The notes under the pieces were generated by a model. It was not told the DNA's origin, searched no databases, and was given only the letters and a program-made list of their open reading frames with translations. From Cognatundibacterium crateris (lineage in GTDB: Bacteria; Pseudomonadota; Gammaproteobacteria; Burkholderiales; Burkholderiaceae_D), in contig NZ_JAABOS010000004.1 in NCBI RefSeq assembly GCF_010078235.1, positions 243,816 through 307,815 of the forward strand: DNA of 64,000 nucleotides. Direction: 5' to 3'. A program made the position numbers and the translations under genes. This document shows positions 7,444 through 15,467 of the stretch, piece after piece; position 1 is the first letter of the stretch, and every line of letters begins with the position of its first letter.

Positions 7444-10014
7444 TCATCCTTCTGAACAGCGTTTGCTGATATGAGCCAGTGCCTCTTCAACCTGATCGAT
7501 CAGGATCAGGCACAGATCGCCAGCTTGCAGACGTTCCAGTGCGAGGTCGATGGCCACGAATTCACCCGTGATTTCATCAACGCGCGTGGTTTTCTTGGCC
7601 GTTTTGAGGCCATCACGCAGCAAGGCAAGCACTTCACCATCGGCGCGGCCACGCTGGCACTGATCCTGATACAGAATCACATCTTCGAATGCATCGCCCA
7701 GGATTTCTGTCTGTTGACGGATATCCTGATCGCGCCGGTCGCCGGCACCGCTGATCACGACTGAGCGACGTTGTGCAGGCATGGTTTCCACCGCCTTGAC
7801 CAGGGCCAGCATCGCATCCGGATTGTGTCCGTAATCTGCAATCACCGTAGCACCACGGAAATCGAACATGTTGAAACGTCCGGGCGCATTGTCGTTTTCA
7901 TTGGCAAAGCTCTTCAGACCTGCGCGGATCACGTCGAAATCCATGTTGACAGCCCAGGCTGCCGCTACCGATGCCATCACGTTTTCAACCTGGAAGCCTA
8001 TGCTGCCATTGCGTGTGATTGGAATGTCGGACAAAGGAATGCTGTGCTTCATTTTGCCTTCTGCCGCGATCAGATGACCGTTCTCGACATAGACTGCGCG
8101 TTTGCCCTGGGCGCGCTGCGCTGCCATCAGCGGGATTTGTGGGTCAGCTGCAAAGAAAATCACTGCTGCCGGACTATTCGCTGCCATGCCGGCTACGATA
8201 GGATCAGCTGCGTTCAACACAGCATAGCCATCGTCTGCGACGTTTTGTACGATCACGCGCTTGAGTACCGCCAGATCTTCCACTGTCGTGATGTAGTTCA
8301 GACCCAGATGGTCGCCAGAGCCAATGTTGGTGACGACTGCGACCTGACAACGGTCATAGGCCAGACCCTCGCGCAGCACGCCGCCCCTGGCGGTTTCAAA
8401 GACTGCAGCATCGACATCCGGATGGGACAGTACATTGCGTGCGCTGCGTGGACCGCTGCAGTCACCACTGTCAATCTGACGGCCATTGACATACACACCA
8501 TCCGTATTTGTCATGCCGGTACGCAGGCCATTGGTGGTCATCAGATGGGCGATCAGTCGCACCGTCGTGGTTTTGCCATTGGTGCCAGTCACGGCGATGA
8601 TAGGAATGCGGCCATCATTACCCGGCTCAAACATGGAGTCGACGATGGCTTCGCCGACTGCGCGTCCTTTGCCGAACGACGGTGATAAGTGCATGCGCAA
8701 ACCTGGCGCTGCATTGACTTCTACGATGCCGCCATTGAGTGCTTCTATCGGTTTTAAGACACTGTCGCAGACCAGGTCGACGCCACAAATATCGAGGCCA
8801 ACCATTTGTGCCGCTGCGATCGCACGTGCTGCGACTTCCGGGTGCACGTCATCGGTTACGTCAGTCGCGGCGCCACCGGTAGACAGATTGGCGTTGTTAC
8901 GCAAAATAACGCGTTGTCCTTTAGGTGGTACTGACTCGGCGCTGTAGCCTTGTTTTGCCAGGCTGGCGAGCGCGATATCGTCGAAGCGTATCTTGGTCAG
9001 TGAAGTGGAGTGACCACTGCCACGGCGTGGATCTTTATTGACTTGTTCGACCAGTTCGCGCACGGTTTGTTTGCCATCGCCGACGACTTGCGGCGGATCG
9101 CGTCTGGCGGCGGCCACCAGTTTGTTACCGATCACCAGTAAGCGGAAGTCATTGCCCGGCAAGAAGCGCTCGACCAGGATGTCATCGCGGAATTCGCTGG
9201 CCGCAAGATAGCCGGCATCCAGTTGTTCACGCGTCGTGACATTGACGGTCACACCCTTACCCTGATTGCCATCTTTAGGTTTAATCACGACCGGCAGGCC
9301 GACTTCCAGTGCCGCAGCCCAGGCATCGTCAGGGCTGGAGACTGCACGTCCCATAGGCACAGGGACACCGGCCGCATGCAGTAATTTTTTGGTGAGTTCT
9401 TTATCCTGTGCGATCGCTTCGGCAATCGCGCTGGTGCCATCCATTTCAGCAGCCTGAATTTTACGCTGGCGTGAGCCCCAGCCAAATGCGACCAGGCTGC
9501 CATCGGTCAGGCGGCGATAAGGAATATTGCGTGCAATCGCGGCATTGACGATGGAGCCGGTAGACGGGCCCAGACGTACGTCTTCATCCAGCTCACGTAA
9601 TTGCTCCAGTGCTGCAGCCAGATCAAAAGCGCTATTGTCGACGGCGGCCTGTATCAGTTTTTCAGCCAGTTCCAGCGCAAGGCGACCGACTGCTTCTTCG
9701 GAATACTCAACCACTACCTGAAACACACCTTGTTCCAGTGTTTGGGTGGTGCGGCTGAAAGTGACCGGGCAACCAGCTTGCGCTTGCAAGCCTAATGCAG
9801 CGAGTTCAAACACATGGGCAATCGAAATGGCGTCGTTGTGACCGGTGGGCTGAAGTATGCTCAGTTCCGGGAATAAGGCACGCAGGCGGTCTTCAAATCC
9901 GGCCAGTTCTGCGATAGCGCATTCCGCTTCGCTACATTTAACGATGGCTTCAACGGCCGTATGGTGGCTCCAGAGATTGGGGCCGCGCAAGGCACGAATG
10001 CGTGATACTTCCAT
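7444..10014 (-). CDS. cphA: Cyanophycin synthetase CphA (full-length)
   Basis: Makes cyanophycin, the storage polymer of an aspartate backbone with arginine side chains, by adding Asp and then Arg with ATP. The 856-residue protein has an N domain (about 1-160), an ATP-grasp G domain (about 165-465, with GLPVVIKPKDGNQGKGV) and a Mur-ligase-like M domain (about 470-856). The M domain has an intact P-loop GTNGKTTT at 477-484 and a late DYGHNPDAML motif. In the N domain, where many synthetases carry an EHxxxE motif, this protein reads ELAALG (70-75), so the His and second Glu are missing. The shorter paralogue lies 159 bases upstream on the same strand. Confidence 0.95.
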   Translation of the reverse strand: MEVSRIRALRGPNLWSHHTAVEAIVKCSEAECAIAELAGFEDRLRALFPELSILQPTGHNDAISIAHVFELAALGLQAQAGCPVTFSRTTQTLEQGVFQVVVEYSEEAVGRLALELAEKLIQAAVDNSAFDLAAALEQLRELDEDVRLGPSTGSIVNAAIARNIPYRRLTDGSLVAFGWGSRQRKIQAAEMDGTSAIAEAIAQDKELTKKLLHAAGVPVPMGRAVSSPDDAWAAALEVGLPVVIKPKDGNQGKGVTVNVTTREQLDAGYLAASEFRDDILVERFLPGNDFRLLVIGNKLVAAARRDPPQVVGDGKQTVRELVEQVNKDPRRGSGHSTSLTKIRFDDIALASLAKQGYSAESVPPKGQRVILRNNANLSTGGAATDVTDDVHPEVAARAIAAAQMVGLDICGVDLVCDSVLKPIEALNGGIVEVNAAPGLRMHLSPSFGKGRAVGEAIVDSMFEPGNDGRIPIIAVTGTNGKTTTVRLIAHLMTTNGLRTGMTNTDGVYVNGRQIDSGDCSGPRSARNVLSHPDVDAAVFETARGGVLREGLAYDRCQVAVVTNIGSGDHLGLNYITTVEDLAVLKRVIVQNVADDGYAVLNAADPIVAGMAANSPAAVIFFAADPQIPLMAAQRAQGKRAVYVENGHLIAAEGKMKHSIPLSDIPITRNGSIGFQVENVMASVAAAWAVNMDFDVIRAGLKSFANENDNAPGRFNMFDFRGATVIADYGHNPDAMLALVKAVETMPAQRRSVVISGAGDRRDQDIRQQTEILGDAFEDVILYQDQCQRGRADGEVLALLRDGLKTAKKTTRVDEITGEFVAIDLALERLQAGDLCLILIDQVEEALAHISKRCSEG

Positions 10015-10173
10015 AAAAACTTAGTCCTGTCGAAAAGGGCAGAATTCAGGTCTCATTCATCATCTGGTCAGCAAGCTTTGCCTGATCCAGATTTGCCTGA
10101 GCCTGTAACAAAAATTAGTCTGCCGCTGTCAAATATCTGAGGCACTGACGGCGGCAGGTGGATTAGCCAAAAA

Positions 10174-12360
10174 TCAAAATGCTGCTTTGGTGCTGGTGTC
10201 AAAAGTGCGCAAACCTGCCGCGATCAGTTCTGGCGACACTTGCAGCGCCCAGGCGGCGGCAACGGCAGCCAGTACGCTCAGTGCTTTTTCTGCTTTCGCT
10301 GGCTTCAGGGCAGACACCGGCATGAGCTGGATTTCTTCTGCGCCGGACGCCAGTATGATTTCTCCGTCACGAATGAAAGCCACACGCTTACCTTGTTCGC
10401 GGTGTGCGACGATGGCAGGCAGTTCTGCCGAGCTGGCATAGAAAATCACATCGCCATCACATAATTCGGCCAGTTCCACCACGGCTGCTTCATCGGCATT
10501 TAAGACCGCGACGCCATCCGGCAACACCACATCGACCTGAGTGCGCATGATCTTATACATCTGCTCCGGCTCAAGGATGTAGAAATCGCCCAAGTCAGCA
10601 GCACCATCGAAGTCTGTGACCACAGCAACGCTGCAACGGTCATAGGCCAGGCCATCGTTCAGGATAGCGCGCGCATTGGTCTCAAATACGGCGGCTTCAA
10701 CCGACCGGTTGATCAGCAGGCGCTCGCCAGCATTCCAGGTCGCGCAATTGCCTTCCGTGACCAGTCGCTTATTCAGGAACAGTCCGTCCTGACAAGCCAC
10801 GCCGGTTTGCTCGCCGTGCATATGCAGCAGGCCCGCGATCAGACGTGAAATCAGGCTGGTATTGCGGCTGCCTGCGACACCGATGATATCGATGCGGCCG
10901 GATTCTTCTTCTGCGAACAAATGATCGATAATCGCTTTGCCGACTTCACGGCCTGCACCATTGGCAGGCTTGATGTGAGCCAGTAAGCCGGGGCTGGCAT
11001 TGACTTCGATAATCGCGCCGGTTTGCGCTGACAGCGGTTTGGAAATGTCTTCTACAACCAGATCCACACCGGCGATATCGAGACCGACGATGCGTGCTGC
11101 CAGGCATGCGGTTTCTGCGATGTCCGGATGGATATCGTCAGTCACATCGAGGGCAACATTGCCGTTAATCTGGATCAGTACTTTTTGACCATCCAATGGA
11201 ATAGATGATCCAGTCATTCCCTGACGGTCAAGTTCCAGATTCACTTCTGCTGCCTCGTTAATATCAACGATGTTAAGCGGAAAATCTTCTGTTGTTCCAC
11301 GTCGTGGATCGGTATTAATCTGGCTGTCTATCAGCTCTACGACTGTGGATTTTCCATCGCCGCTAATCCACAACGTCTCACCTTTGCCGACTGCAACGAC
11401 CTTATTGCCGACGACCAGCACACGGTGTTCATCGCCGGTGATGAATTTTTCGACTATCACAGATTTGCTGCCGCCTTTGCGTACTGCCAGCTCATACGCC
11501 GCGGTCACGTCAGCCAGTGTCATCAGATTCAGTGAGACGCCACGGCCATGATTGCCGTCATAAGGTTTAATCACGACAGGCAGGCCGATATCCTGTGCCT
11601 CTTCCCATGCTTCTTCAGCGCTGCGCACGATGCAGCCTTCCGGCACTGGCACGCCGCAGGATTGCAGCAGGGTTTTGGTCAGATCTTTATCGCTGGCGAT
11701 GCTTTCTGCAATCGCGCTGGTGCGGTCGGTTTCTGCTGTCCAGATACGGCGCTGTGCTGCGCCATGGCCTAACTGCACCAGGTTGCCATCGGTCAGACGG
11801 ATAGATGGAATTCGGCGCGCGGTCGCTGCATCAACGATGTTGGCGGTACTCGGTCCCAGGCAGCGTGAATCGACCAGATCGCGCAATTCTGTGAGTTGCG
11901 CTTCCAGATCGAAAGCTTGGTCATTAATGGCGGCCATCAACAAGTCACGGGCTATCGCAAGGGCGCGGCGTCCGACCTGTTCTTCACGGGTACGGAAAGC
12001 CATCTTGTAGACGCCGATCACATTGGTGGAGCGGGTCTGGCCAAAGCCAGTGCGCATGCCAGCCAGATTCTGCAGTTCGAGTACGACGTGTTCCAGGATA
12101 TGACCTGACCAGGTGCCTTCGCGCAGACGCTCGAGGAAGCCACCGCGCTCTCCAACGCCGCAACGATGTTCCATCAGGCCAGGCAGCCAGCTGGTCAGTC
12201 GCTCATAGAGTCCGGGCAGCAGGTTGGAGGGGGTGTCTTCAAGAGCACCGATATCCAGCCAGGTTTCTATGACTGGGCGGTAGGTCCAGATATTCGGCCC
12301 GCGTAAGTGGTTGACGCGGAGAATGCTGATGTCTTTCTTCTTAGTTGTCATGTAAGTCAT
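10174..12360 (-). CDS. cphA': Cyanophycin synthetase paralogue CphA' with degenerate Mur-ligase domain
   Basis: A 728-residue paralogue of the synthetase encoded next to it. The N domain keeps the EHVVLE motif (Glu90, His91, Glu95), which resembles the EHxxxE site I recall for the N-domain hydrolase that makes primers. The ATP-grasp domain looks intact (GLPVVIKPYDGNHGRGV). The Mur-ligase part is damaged: the P-loop position reads GVAGSRNTSL (494-503), without the Lys-Thr pair, and about 130 C-terminal residues including the DYGHNP region are absent. It could therefore add Asp but probably not Arg. A second ATG at 12351 (MTTKKKD) is an alternative start. It is the first gene of the minus-strand pair. 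Confidence 0.92.
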   Translation of the reverse strand: MTYMTTKKKDISILRVNHLRGPNIWTYRPVIETWLDIGALEDTPSNLLPGLYERLTSWLPGLMEHRCGVGERGGFLERLREGTWSGHILEHVVLELQNLAGMRTGFGQTRSTNVIGVYKMAFRTREEQVGRRALAIARDLLMAAINDQAFDLEAQLTELRDLVDSRCLGPSTANIVDAATARRIPSIRLTDGNLVQLGHGAAQRRIWTAETDRTSAIAESIASDKDLTKTLLQSCGVPVPEGCIVRSAEEAWEEAQDIGLPVVIKPYDGNHGRGVSLNLMTLADVTAAYELAVRKGGSKSVIVEKFITGDEHRVLVVGNKVVAVGKGETLWISGDGKSTVVELIDSQINTDPRRGTTEDFPLNIVDINEAAEVNLELDRQGMTGSSIPLDGQKVLIQINGNVALDVTDDIHPDIAETACLAARIVGLDIAGVDLVVEDISKPLSAQTGAIIEVNASPGLLAHIKPANGAGREVGKAIIDHLFAEEESGRIDIIGVAGSRNTSLISRLIAGLLHMHGEQTGVACQDGLFLNKRLVTEGNCATWNAGERLLINRSVEAAVFETNARAILNDGLAYDRCSVAVVTDFDGAADLGDFYILEPEQMYKIMRTQVDVVLPDGVAVLNADEAAVVELAELCDGDVIFYASSAELPAIVAHREQGKRVAFIRDGEIILASGAEEIQLMPVSALKPAKAEKALSVLAAVAAAWALQVSPELIAAGLRTFDTSTKAAF

Positions 12361-12736
12361 TTCTAGCCGACCCGGATAGATATCCAGATCCTGTCATAGG
12401 TAGAATCATACTTCGCTTCTCAAGTGCATTCAGGCTAAACGATTGACATGGAGTGTCAACCAATCTGCTTTCCTGCCGTTATCAGGCCACCGGCATGGAT
12501 ATATTCAACACAAAGCGGGAATGTAAGACGCGCTTGCTGATATACTTGCGCGCCAGCGCAACAGCTTGAATCCTCTTGATCAGTTTCGTCTGATTATTCT
12601 TCTTTCGATAGAATACCGTAAATTGCCGCCTCCGTGATATGGCTTATTGCCATTACGGAAGCAAGAAATCTGTTTTTTCAAAATTTTCAGTCCCGATTTC
12701 CCCGGGAATAGCGCATCTGCCGGAGTTTGCTTCACG
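12361..12736. other. Divergent intergenic region of the cyanophycin locus
   Basis: These 376 bases separate the cphA' start from the likely ABC transporter start. They must hold promoters for both directions. I see one clear inverted repeat (12443-12459) but no convincing pair of -35 and -10 boxes. A longer reading frame for the ABC gene begins at 12647, but its first 30 residues look unlike protein-domain sequence. Confidence 0.6.
12443..12459. promoter_or_regulatory. Inverted repeat, possible operator
   Basis: TTGACA, a 5-base spacer and TGTCAA form a perfect 6-base inverted repeat about 85 bases upstream of cphA'. It could be a regulator binding site. The TTGACA half is also a consensus -35 box on the plus strand, although no matching -10 is evident. 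Confidence 0.45.
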
Positions 12737-14995
12737 ATGACCACTTTATTACCTAGTTCCGAGCAATCCATTTTATCGCTGAGCGCCGAATGGCAATCTG
12801 CGCTCGCACAACAGATCGCCAAAGGCGAAAACGTACAGAGTGCGTTTGAGGTTGACCTCGATAACAAACTTCATTTTGTCAAAGGCCTCATCGTCGTGAC
12901 CGATCAGGCGATCCTGAGCAGACCGGCCGGAGAGACAGAGTGGAAGCGCTGGGCGTTTGAGCCGGGCTTGCAATTAAAACACTACGATCATGCCGGTGTC
13001 GGTCATTTGCAATTGACGAATCAACAAGGTCTGCTGGCCAGCTGGCGTTTTACACTGGGACAGAATCTGCATGCAATCCGTTTGCTGGATCATTTTAAAG
13101 AACAGCTCGATAGCTTTGTGACTGGCCAGCCGGTGCAGCGTGCCGAGCAAAATACCTGCCCCAGCTGCAAGGCCGTGTTGGAAGCGGATCAGGAAGAATG
13201 TCCTGTCTGTACCAAGGTGATTTATACGCCGCCGTCTACCTGGACCTTGCTGCGCCTGTGGCGCTTTGCCCGTCCCTACCGTTTGCAGCTGTTTATCGGT
13301 TTCGCACTGATGTTGATGGGTACGGCAGCGCATATGATTCCGCGCTATCTGACCAAGCCACTCACGGATGAAGTGTTGATTCCGTTTCAGCGCAAGGAGT
13401 TTGTCGATCCTAATCTGGTGTATCTGTACATAGGTGGTTTGTTGGGATCGGCTGTGATTGCCTGGCTGCTGAGTTGGGGCAAGACTTACATACTGGCTCT
13501 GGTCTCTGAGCGTATCGGCGCTGATTTGCGTACCACGACCTATGAACATTTGTTGAAATTATCGCTGGAATATTTTGGTGGTAAACGTACCGGCGATTTG
13601 ATGTCGCGTATCGGTAGTGAGAGTGACCGTATCTGCGTCTATCTGTCGTTGCATTTACTCGATTTTGCAACTGATGTATTGATGTTCGTAATGACTGCGG
13701 TCGCGCTGTTGCAGATCAATACCAAGCTGGCGCTGGTGACTTTGCTGCCGCTGCCATTTATCGCCTGGATGATCCATCTGGTGCGTGACAAGTTGCGTAC
13801 TGGCTTCGAGAAGATAGACCGGGTCTGGGGCGAGGTGACTAATGTGCTGGCCGATACCATACCAGGCATCCGCGTGGTGAAAGCCTTTGCACAGGAAACG
13901 CGTGAAGCGGGTCGTTTCCGTGAGGCGAATAAACATAACCTGGCGGTGAATGACCGTCTGAATAAAGTCTGGTCGCTGTTTTCACCTACCGTTTCTTTCC
14001 TGACTGATCTCGGTATTCTGGTGGTGTGGGCCTTTGGTATCTGGCAGGTCGCGCATGAAGAAATCACAGTCGGTGCACTGGTCGCAGCAGTGGCTTTCAT
14101 CAGTAACTTTTATGGCCGTATCGATTCCATGAGTCGCATCGTGTCAGTGACTCAGAAATCGGCATCGGCAGCCAAACGTATTTTTGACATTCTGGATCAT
14201 GTGTCCAGCGTACCTGACCCTCAGCATCCGGTGAAAGTACAAGAAGTCCAGGGCAAGATAGAGCTGCGTGAAGTCGGCTTCCGTTATGGTAACCGTGCCG
14301 TGAATCGCGGCATTAACCTGACCATAAAACCAGGTGAAATGATAGGCCTGGTAGGACATAGTGGTTCCGGTAAGAGTACTTTGGTCAATTTGATCTGCCG
14401 TTTTTATGATGTGTCAGAAGGCGCGATACTGCTGGATGGTAAAGATATACGTTCGTACGCGGTATCCGATTACCGCAGCCAGATCGGTCTGGTTTTGCAA
14501 GAGCCTTTCCTGTTCTTCGGCACCATTGCTGACAATATCGCTTATGGCAAACCCCACGCGACGCGCGAGGAAATCATCGCAGCAGCAAGAGCTGCTCATG
14601 CGCATGAATTCATTCTGCGTCTGCCGCAAGGCTATGATTCTATGGTGGGTGAGCGTGGTCAGGGCTTGTCCGGCGGTGAGCGTCAGCGTATTTCGATCGC
14701 GCGTGCCTTGTTGATTGATCCTAAGATCCTGATCATGGATGAAGCGACTTCTTCCGTCGATTCACAGACGGAAAAAGAAATTCAAAAGGCACTGGACAAC
14801 CTGGTGCAAGGCCGTACCACCATCGCGATTGCGCATCGTTTGTCTACCTTGCACAAGGCAGACCGTCTGGTGGTACTGGATCGTGGCCAGGTAATCGAAG
14901 TCGGTGGTCATGACGAATTGATGGCGAAGCAGGGCGCGTATTTTGATTTGTACACAGCCCAAGCCAGAAACGCGCAATTAGCAGGAGATGAATAA
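12737..14995 (+). CDS. ABC exporter with N-terminal zinc ribbon (cyanophycin-associated)
   Basis: A 752-residue fused ABC exporter half-transporter. Order: an N-terminal region of about 130 residues that resembles a small PH-like or DUF1854-like beta domain, a zinc ribbon with two Cys-x2-Cys knuckles (CPSCKAVLEADQEECPVC), six membrane segments, then the nucleotide-binding domain. The last has GHSGSGKST, LSGGERQRISIARALL and LIMDEATSSVD. The start at 12737 (MTTLLPSSEQS) is preferred to 12647. It diverges from the synthetases and overlaps or abuts the DUF1854 gene. I recall such proteins being annotated as cyanophycin-metabolism-associated ABC transporters; the substrate is unknown. A lipid or MsbA-like exporter is the nearest structural comparison. 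Confidence 0.88.
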   Translation: MTTLLPSSEQSILSLSAEWQSALAQQIAKGENVQSAFEVDLDNKLHFVKGLIVVTDQAILSRPAGETEWKRWAFEPGLQLKHYDHAGVGHLQLTNQQGLLASWRFTLGQNLHAIRLLDHFKEQLDSFVTGQPVQRAEQNTCPSCKAVLEADQEECPVCTKVIYTPPSTWTLLRLWRFARPYRLQLFIGFALMLMGTAAHMIPRYLTKPLTDEVLIPFQRKEFVDPNLVYLYIGGLLGSAVIAWLLSWGKTYILALVSERIGADLRTTTYEHLLKLSLEYFGGKRTGDLMSRIGSESDRICVYLSLHLLDFATDVLMFVMTAVALLQINTKLALVTLLPLPFIAWMIHLVRDKLRTGFEKIDRVWGEVTNVLADTIPGIRVVKAFAQETREAGRFREANKHNLAVNDRLNKVWSLFSPTVSFLTDLGILVVWAFGIWQVAHEEITVGALVAAVAFISNFYGRIDSMSRIVSVTQKSASAAKRIFDILDHVSSVPDPQHPVKVQEVQGKIELREVGFRYGNRAVNRGINLTIKPGEMIGLVGHSGSGKSTLVNLICRFYDVSEGAILLDGKDIRSYAVSDYRSQIGLVLQEPFLFFGTIADNIAYGKPHATREEIIAAARAAHAHEFILRLPQGYDSMVGERGQGLSGGERQRISIARALLIDPKILIMDEATSSVDSQTEKEIQKALDNLVQGRTTIAIAHRLSTLHKADRLVVLDRGQVIEVGGHDELMAKQGAYFDLYTAQARNAQLAGDE

Positions 14996-14996
14996 G

Positions 14997-15467
14997 ATGG
15001 CGACTACGCAATTCAATTTACACAGAAATCCGTTTGCGCAGTTAATTCTGACCAATCAGGCCGGTGAAGTGTTTGAAGGTGTCAGCCCGGTGCGTGCCTT
15101 TCCTATTCAGTCACCAGCCGGATGTATTTCTCTGGTTACGACCGATGGACGTGAAGTGGCCTGGATAGACAGCCTGGAAGACTTGGCTGATGGCGTACGT
15201 CAACTGGTGCTGGAAGAGCTGGGCGGGCGCGAATTTATGCCTGAAATTCAGTCTATTACCGCTGTCAGCAGTTTCGCTGTGCCTTGTACCTGGACCGTCA
15301 GCACAGATCGCGGCGTGACTGCTTTTGTTCTCAAAGGGGATGAGGATATCCGTCGCATCGGTCAGGCTTCCTTGCTGATTACCGATAATCACGGTATTCA
15401 GTTTCTGATCCGCGATATGTTCACGATAGATAAACACAGCCGGAAAATTCTGGATCGTTTCCTGTAA
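14997..15467 (+). CDS. DUF1854 protein (cyanophycin-associated)
   Basis: A 156-residue protein of the DUF1854 family, without signal peptide or membrane segments and so probably cytoplasmic. It starts MATTQFNLHRNPFAQLILTN and has the family features GVSPVRAFPIQSP, VAWIDSLEDL and DRGVTAFVLKGDEDIRRI. The start at 14997 is chosen because AGGAG at 14983-14987 is 9 bases upstream; the earlier ATG at 14988 directly abuts that site. It follows the ABC transporter gene by one base, implying translational coupling and a shared job. The family is known to accompany cyanophycin genes, but no activity is established to my knowledge. Confidence 0.88.
   Translation: MATTQFNLHRNPFAQLILTNQAGEVFEGVSPVRAFPIQSPAGCISLVTTDGREVAWIDSLEDLADGVRQLVLEELGGREFMPEIQSITAVSSFAVPCTWTVSTDRGVTAFVLKGDEDIRRIGQASLLITDNHGIQFLIRDMFTIDKHSRKILDRFL

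Follow-up and report, generated by a model that had tools for sequence, protein, structure and literature searches.

Why does a bacterium keep two adjacent genes for cyanophycin synthetase, each lacking a different part of the catalytic sites? The question is raised by cphA' and cphA in a 64,000-nucleotide stretch of Cognatundibacterium crateris (assembly GCF_010078235.1, contig NZ_JAABOS010000004.1, positions 243,816 to 307,815), hereafter the window. The two genes are adjacent on the minus strand, with cphA' (10174..12360, 728 residues) upstream of cphA (7444..10014, 856 residues) and a gap of 159 bases between them; an earlier reading of this DNA (the original prediction) had given the same coordinates and lengths. 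The start codon of cphA' is the ATG at 12360 or, alternatively, an in-frame ATG three codons further. Both proteins share the order and fold of the N, G and M domains with the characterised CphA1 enzymes (SuCphA1 and TeCphA1), and each holds part of the three sites. CphA is the polymerase-type partner, in which the peptidase site of the N domain is absent and the aspartate site of the ATP-grasp (G) domain and the Mur-ligase (M) domain are kept. CphA' is the peptidase-type partner, which keeps the N site and has lost the aspartate site, M catalysis and the M lid. We favour, with a probability of about 0.48, the explanation that CphA is a polymerase in need of primers and that CphA', a peptidase built on the scaffold of a synthetase, provides these in trans.

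The peptidase site of the N domain

In SuCphA1, the functional motif of the N domain is Cx19HxxEH (C59, H79, E82 and H83), aided by H57 and E87, and the substitution E82Q abolishes primer independence (PMC9262961). The domain works slowly, with 4-mers as preferred products. The N domain alone, or SuCphA1 with a dead G and/or M domain, frees the primer-dependent TmCphA1 of Tatumella morbirosei from its need for a primer when supplied in trans (PMC9262961).

CphA' contains this metallopeptidase (inverzincin-like) motif in full, as H65-x-C67-x19-H87-x-x-E90-H91-x3-E95 (12076..12168, minus strand). The motif is missing from the N domain of CphA (residues 1-148 and 9571..10014 on the minus strand, with approximate limits drawn from the SuCphA1 alignment), where H79 and E82 are kept, C59 is replaced by P, H83 by L and E87 by G, H57 is lost, and the H57/C59/R70 segment is shortened by deletion of the part around R70. 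The alignment places ELAALG of CphA opposite EHVALE of SuCphA1, at the EHxxxE position to which the original prediction had assigned it, and EHVVLE is found at residues 90-95 of CphA' as described there. The original prediction had named an EHxxxE-like site for primer-making; the published motif is Cx19HxxEH and not EHxxxE (PMC9262961).

The zinc-peptidase motif is unchanged in 19 aligned CphA' and in all 96 CphA' that cover the region. Positions 57, 59, 70, 79, 82, 83 and 87 all fall within the 24 of 158 N-domain positions that are at least 99% conserved among these 96 proteins (hypergeometric P ~8e-7); within the N domain of CphA', the N-site residues are the best preserved. Among 97 CphA, only four N-domain positions reach 99% conservation and none of the seven is among them. 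The pair loci stem from one ancestral duplication, so that these counts do not represent independent events. Because the whole peptidase site is kept and SuCphA1 with dead G and/or M domains primes in trans (PMC9262961), primer-making by CphA' is plausible.

Distribution of the paired loss

A search with the CphA1 equivalog TIGR02068 matched 45 of 60 relatives at 1e-60. In the window's genus every one of the 36 genomes matches, 33 of them two or more times; in the order, 96 of 250 genomes match at 1e-100 and 89 of the 96 have two or more; in the phylum, the figure is 37 of 397, with 13 outside the order. For the survey 120 stretches were fetched. Loci L120, L122 and L132 and incomplete loci were left out of the site counts, and no pairs were counted for G247, which has fragments, or for other genomes in which the second gene lies beyond the contig.

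The four N-motif residues occur together in 0 of 98 CphA and in 96 of 97 CphA', the remaining one being a fragment without the region. Across the 92 complete pair loci, the N motif is present in every CphA' and in no CphA, and the aspartate site in every CphA and in no CphA'. The M site including the lid is found in 92 CphA and in six CphA', and the six residues on the ATP/Mg side are present in both proteins in 91 pairs. Ordinary single CphA1 keep every site (18/18). The paired loss noted in the original prediction was accordingly seen in each complete pair examined, and extends to many Burkholderiales. Gene order is equally constant: at all 93 pair loci both genes share a strand and cphA' comes first.

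The pattern was also found among named genomes, for which the best 80 of at least 593 pattern matches were taken; of two search patterns used, one includes H79/E82 and so favours these residues. In this set, the N motif is present in 80 of 80 CphA' and 0 of 76 CphA, the full aspartate site is kept in 74 of 76 CphA (the other two lack the region), and R323 is replaced by G in 80 of 80 CphA'. The named species may overlap the first survey, and the counts are kept separate. The genera listed among the named pairs are Undibacterium, Massilia, Janthinobacterium, Duganella, Rhodoferax, Cupriavidus, Achromobacter, Ralstonia and Thiobacillus, and the nearest named CphA' to that of the window, among the same best 80 loci, belongs to Undibacterium sp. 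TS12 (78% identity).

Outside the order, 11 further pairs were found in the family of G652, with the N motif in 11 of 11 CphA' and 0 of 11 CphA. In these CphA', H267 is lost (R in ten, L in one) and M catalysis is dead. The CphA' of L130 in G652 has a broken G site (H267A, D431A, E450D and N452T) beside an intact N motif.

The ligase domains

The aspartate entering the G domain of CphA1 is contacted by R323, N394 and R458, and replacing any of them with alanine impairs TeCphA1; S396W inactivates SuCphA1; the acyl-phosphate is stabilised by H267 and R309 (PMC9427784), and H267A inactivates the SuCphA1 G domain (PMC9262961). H267, R269, R323, S396 and R458 are present in all four solved CphA1. 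The G domain of the window's CphA' (approximately residues 169-486, 10903..11856, minus strand) keeps the ATP/Mg residues and N394, and has G327 in place of R323, a deletion of S396-G399 and L460 in place of R458. CphA keeps R323, N394, S396 and R458, and its G-domain P-loop reads GNQGKG, with Q251 (9262..9264, minus strand) aligned at H267; Q is found at this position in 98 of 101 CphA-class sequences. The original prediction that both ATP-grasp domains are intact thus stands for the ATP/Mg residues of both proteins and falls for the aspartate contacts of CphA' and for H267 of CphA.

The differences fixed between CphA and CphA' gather in the acceptor region of the G domain (188, 203, 307, 323, 390, 393, 396-399, 454 and 458), and include 267 and 269. 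In CphA', the pocket changes R323G, R390Q, A393G, deletion of S396-G399, A454G and R458L are each fixed at 90% or more; R309 and the ATP/Mg-side residues are kept despite the loss of the aspartate-carboxylate contacts. In the CphA' of 14 pairs, H267 or more of the G site is lost, while the N site is kept wherever the region is present; judged from these residues, G activity of CphA' cannot be generally needed. A sharing of H267 between the two G domains, in which CphA would have lost G function through H267->Q and CphA' would provide the histidine, was considered and rejected, since eight pairs have H267 in neither protein and the single gene of L132 has Q267 with its other sites intact.

The M domain of CphA1 is served by K499 and the lid (PMC9427784), and D585A/H586A inactivate it in SuCphA1 (PMC9262961). 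CphA has the P-loop GTNGKTTT at residues 477-484 (8563..8586, minus strand), as the original prediction had stated, and K499, D585/H586 and the lid residues R731/H748 are kept in 92 of 92 CphA. In the M-core remnant of CphA' (approximately residues 487-728, 10177..10902, minus strand), the P-loop has become GVAGSRNTS, the catalytic DH is lost and the lid is absent. The earlier description of this P-loop (GVAGSRNTSL) and of the missing C-terminal end was likewise correct, as the alignment to CphA1 ends at residue 725, before the lid. CphA scores above the TIGR02068 cut-off (997.1 against 850 bits) and CphA' below it (701.4 bits); the broader NF010623 matches both, with 1012 bits for CphA' against a cut-off of 877; and the two Pfam Mur-ligase domains are found in CphA, whereas CphA' has no match to either.

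Because the aspartate pocket and the M site are both kept in CphA (92/92), this protein would, judged by its residues, be expected to add Asp as well as Arg without a partner. The earlier proposal that CphA' adds Asp and CphA adds Arg does not agree with the residues, as R323, S396 and R458 are gone from CphA' and its pocket is kept in 0 of 92 pairs. The M-core remnant of CphA' is nevertheless predicted to be folded, with a block mean predicted local distance difference test (pLDDT) of 77-97 for residues 491-720. In SuCphA1, the polymer at the N site is in contact with S603 and E607 of the M domain (PMC9262961), which is a possible reason for keeping the remnant.

Origin of the pair

In a tree of 216 sequences and 697 columns, from which sequences of 600 residues or less were left out, CphA (96 sequences, support 0.949) and CphA' (96 sequences, support 1.0) form separate clades joined at support 1.0. 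The single gene of L132 (G396), which has the N motif, Q267/K269 and the aspartate and M sites, branches basally on the side of CphA' (support 0.975), and may precede or follow the duplication. It is weak evidence, since the contig end cuts the gene, the genome is 8% contaminated and such a gene occurs in one of 48 genomes of its order.

All ten full-length CphA' among 96 retain the M motif, as does one of the 86 truncated ones. Parsimony gives a CphA' ancestor with an intact M domain, with two changes, or four losses if loss is irreversible; the N-site and aspartate-pocket differences are therefore older, and the loss of the M domain from CphA' is the later event. For truncated pairs, amino-acid differences average 0.375 (N), 0.342 (G) and 0.549 (M) for CphA', and 0.414, 0.299 and 0.319 for CphA, so that the fastest-changing part is the M remnant in CphA' and the N domain in CphA. 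The median ratios of nonsynonymous to synonymous substitution rates (dN/dS) of CphA' are 0.076 for the G and 0.086 for the N domain; these are rough values, as dS was near saturation in most genus comparisons (medians 1.75-2.11) and the ratios draw on no more than 14-40 comparisons per class.

The predicted model of CphA' (mean pLDDT 84.4) is closer to CphA1 (7wae, template modelling (TM) score 0.83, 35% identity) than to CphA2 (7ta5, TM score 0.65, 21% identity). The model of CphA (mean pLDDT 73.2) was poor for the G domain, with many blocks there at 30-60, and was not used.

Scarcity of cyanophycinase

Cyanophycinase (TIGR02069) was sought in 60 of the approximately 100 paired genomes. It scores above the cut-off in five of them (G055, G091, G103, G135 and G283), compared with 18 of 18 genomes with ordinary CphA1; G109 has a weak match below the cut-off, and TIGR02069 had no match in G652, which carries a pair, or in G396, which carries the single gene. 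In the genome of the window, searches with TIGR02069, PF03575 (peptidase S51) and PF01112 (isoaspartyl aminopeptidase) gave no match, and TIGR01975 gave none above its cut-off. These results are in line with a survey in which recognisable cyanophycinase occurs in 2.8% of 903 beta-proteobacterial genomes encoding CphA1, compared with 70-100% in the other clades listed, a low share that its authors termed unanticipated (PMC10206079, Table 2). Published passages on Herminiimonas and Sideroxydans agree with this scarcity, and sludge bacteria with two cphA and no cphB have been described (PMC10687191, section 3.3).

In G091 and G283, another CphA duo lies beside the best-scoring cyanophycinase. These duos (L120 in G091, 906 and 914 residues; L122 in G283, 1144 and 1085 residues) are encoded on opposite strands; the N motif is in neither member, GNQGKG is present, and the aspartate and M residues are kept.

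A proposed division of the synthetase and its alternatives

In the explanation we favour, an ancestral three-site synthetase (N peptidase, G aspartate ligase and M arginine ligase) would have been duplicated, and the copies would have divided the sites between them. CphA would have become a primer-dependent polymerase whose G domain adds Asp and whose M domain adds Arg, with an N domain that no longer cuts. CphA' would have become a peptidase that retains the synthetase scaffold. Its N domain would cut the polymer into short segments, which CphA may use as primers either in trans or within a mixed oligomer. The G domain of CphA' would have kept the ATP/Mg residues without the aspartate pocket, and M catalysis would have been lost later. 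Homology, the residues kept and lost, their conservation, gene order and the tree are read directly from the sequences. From them we infer that CphA' cuts, that it supplies primers to CphA and associates with it physically, and that the polymer is cyanophycin. The proteins may also be mutually dependent, as the original prediction had suggested, and the constant order and strand of their genes is consistent with this.

Several observations weigh against this explanation. Its weakest point is the G domain of CphA', which is re-shaped and yet conserved (0.342, compared with 0.375 for N) beyond what a scaffold would require. The G domain of CphA could itself be weak or altered, because H267 is replaced by Q and H267A inactivates the domain in SuCphA1, and the eight pairs with H267 in neither protein add to this difficulty. 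CphA' is not a peptidase only everywhere, as 11 of 96 keep the M motif. Nor does the explanation account for the fate of the polymer in the majority of paired genomes, where no cyanophycinase was found. The strongest contrary evidence, if the genes concerned belong to these clades, comes from Ralstonia eutropha H16, for which Adames et al. 2013 is reportedly the primary source. Two reviews report that no cyanophycin was detected from the two H16 genes in the natural host or in Escherichia coli (PMC8560796; wild type PMC11362209), and an active pair should make cyanophycin. Other Cupriavidus among the best 80 named loci fall in the pair clades, with full-length CphA'.

The same observations bear on other explanations. 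CphA' may mainly mobilise the polymer, its N endopeptidase having been freed from the polymerase and having replaced cyanophycinase. The scarcity of that enzyme in paired genomes and in the published survey (PMC10206079), and the lack of matches above cut-off to it, to PF01112 and to TIGR01975 in the window's genome, point this way. We nevertheless regard this as unlikely: all 18 ordinary CphA1 genomes retain cyanophycinase beside an intact N site, the slow SuCphA1 N domain yields mainly 4-mers (PMC9262961), so that other enzymes would be needed to release free amino acids, and cphA' stands in operon-like order with a synthetase gene. Equally doubtful is a product other than storage cyanophycin, in which CphA links Asp with Arg (or a different side chain), the G domain of CphA' joins another amine and the neighbouring ATP-binding cassette (ABC) transporter moves the product. 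The residues checked for Asp addition and M catalysis in CphA are intact in all 92 pairs, and 14 CphA' have lost H267 or more of the G site; however, the pocket changes of CphA' are fixed and not random, H267 is replaced by Q in CphA, cyanophycinase is absent from 55 of the 60 paired genomes searched, the H16 genes reportedly yield no cyanophycin (PMC8560796), and ABC transporter and DUF1854 genes accompany 85 of 93 pair loci compared with 0 of 20 canonical-class loci. A wider scheme, which we also consider improbable, combines these elements into a two-protein machine of Burkholderiales: CphA' would start and break chains, replacing cyanophycinase, and its re-shaped ATP-grasp domain would join a substrate different from free aspartate. 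If true, most beta-proteobacterial 'cyanophycin synthetase' annotations would describe a metabolism unlike the cyanobacterial one.

A CphA2-like role of CphA' is less probable still. Its G domain would join beta-Asp-Arg units or oligomers, reusing pieces cut by its own N domain, and R323 would be dispensable because the side carboxyl of beta-Asp-Arg is already amide-bonded. The loss of the free-aspartate carboxylate contacts with retention of R309 and the ATP/Mg residues would suit this role, as would the loss of the M P-loop and lid, which is stated for CphA2 (PMC9427784); against it stand the greater similarity of the model to CphA1 and the 14 CphA' in which H267 is missing. It is very hard to see CphA' as a decaying duplicate devoid of function, even though its M domain is truncated in 86 of 96 cases and evolves faster than G (0.549 compared with 0.342) and the G site of L130 is wrecked, for the N site is invariant in 96 CphA', gene order is constant in 93 loci, the M remnant is predicted to fold, and the dN/dS medians are low, albeit from few pairs with unsaturated dS.

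Relation to known systems

The closest parallel to a CphA/CphA' division is engineered. A SuCphA1 heterodimer of N-G+M+ and N+G-M- protomers works without primer, somewhat less well than the enzyme with all sites in one protomer (PMC9262961, Sharon et al. 2022). As in the proposed pair, the primer-making site is on one protomer and the polymerase sites on the other; unlike it, the protomers are point mutants of one gene, whereas the G domain of CphA' is altered on its acceptor side and not simply dead, and a CphA/CphA' complex is only proposed. TmCphA1 resembles CphA in having none of the four N-motif residues and in keeping G and M (PMC9262961), but has H267/R269. Both window proteins differ from SuCphA1 and TeCphA1 in their partial sets of sites: CphA keeps the G-aspartate and M residues with H267 replaced by Q, and CphA' keeps Cx19HxxEH without R323, S396, R458, M catalysis and the lid. 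CphA2 (7ta5 and 8fxh) shares with CphA' the absence of the M lid and M P-loop (PMC9427784); published CphA2 lack the N motif (PMC9262961), which CphA' has, and CphA' is nearer to CphA1.

Gene pairs of cphA and the missing cyanophycinase are already in print. The 'Group 1' cphA cluster of activated-sludge bacteria has two cphA copies, an ABC transporter and no cphB (PMC10687191), and its gene content suggests that its members belong to the CphA/CphA' clades; section 3.3 of that paper gives no residue analysis or division of labour. No description of complementary site loss or of a division of labour was found in the literature searched, subscription papers aside. Beta-proteobacteria make up 903 of 1,614 CphA1-encoding genomes in one survey (PMC10206079). 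If true, a division of labour between polymerase and peptidase would account for the second gene and be a natural counterpart of the engineered split enzyme. It would also suggest why expression of a single gene could fail, with cutter and builder needed together, and offer a candidate for the missing degrading step. Some of the CphA1 sequences that lack the N motif (approximately 20%) may then be partners of a CphA' and not solo primer-dependent enzymes.

Neighbouring genes and further loci

Upstream of cphA', on the plus strand, the window contains an ABC transporter gene (12647..14995) matching NF052233, 'cyanophycin metabolism-associated ABC transporter' (NCBIfam, 1371 bits, cut-off 880), and a gene (14988..15467) matching NF052234, 'cyanophycin metabolism-associated DUF1854 family protein' (224 bits, cut-off 150). 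At the 85 pair loci with these genes, the ABC transporter gene is divergent in 81 and on the same strand in four; the other eight lack both genes in the fetched stretch. Both are present at 11 of 11 pairs in the family of G652. A literature search for cyanophycin together with DUF1854 found no paper. Matches in a promoter and terminator scan were not more numerous than in shuffled sequence. A plasmid search returned 21 records, with a best identity below 60% and annotation mostly as ordinary cphA.

At L153 (G045), where CphA' is intact, the neighbouring CphA is spread over two overlapping frames, owing to a disrupted gene or a sequencing error. L158 (G050) and L160 (G023) encode ATP-grasp proteins of 775 and 662 residues, which are akin to the CphA G domain and M core and lack the N-motif region.

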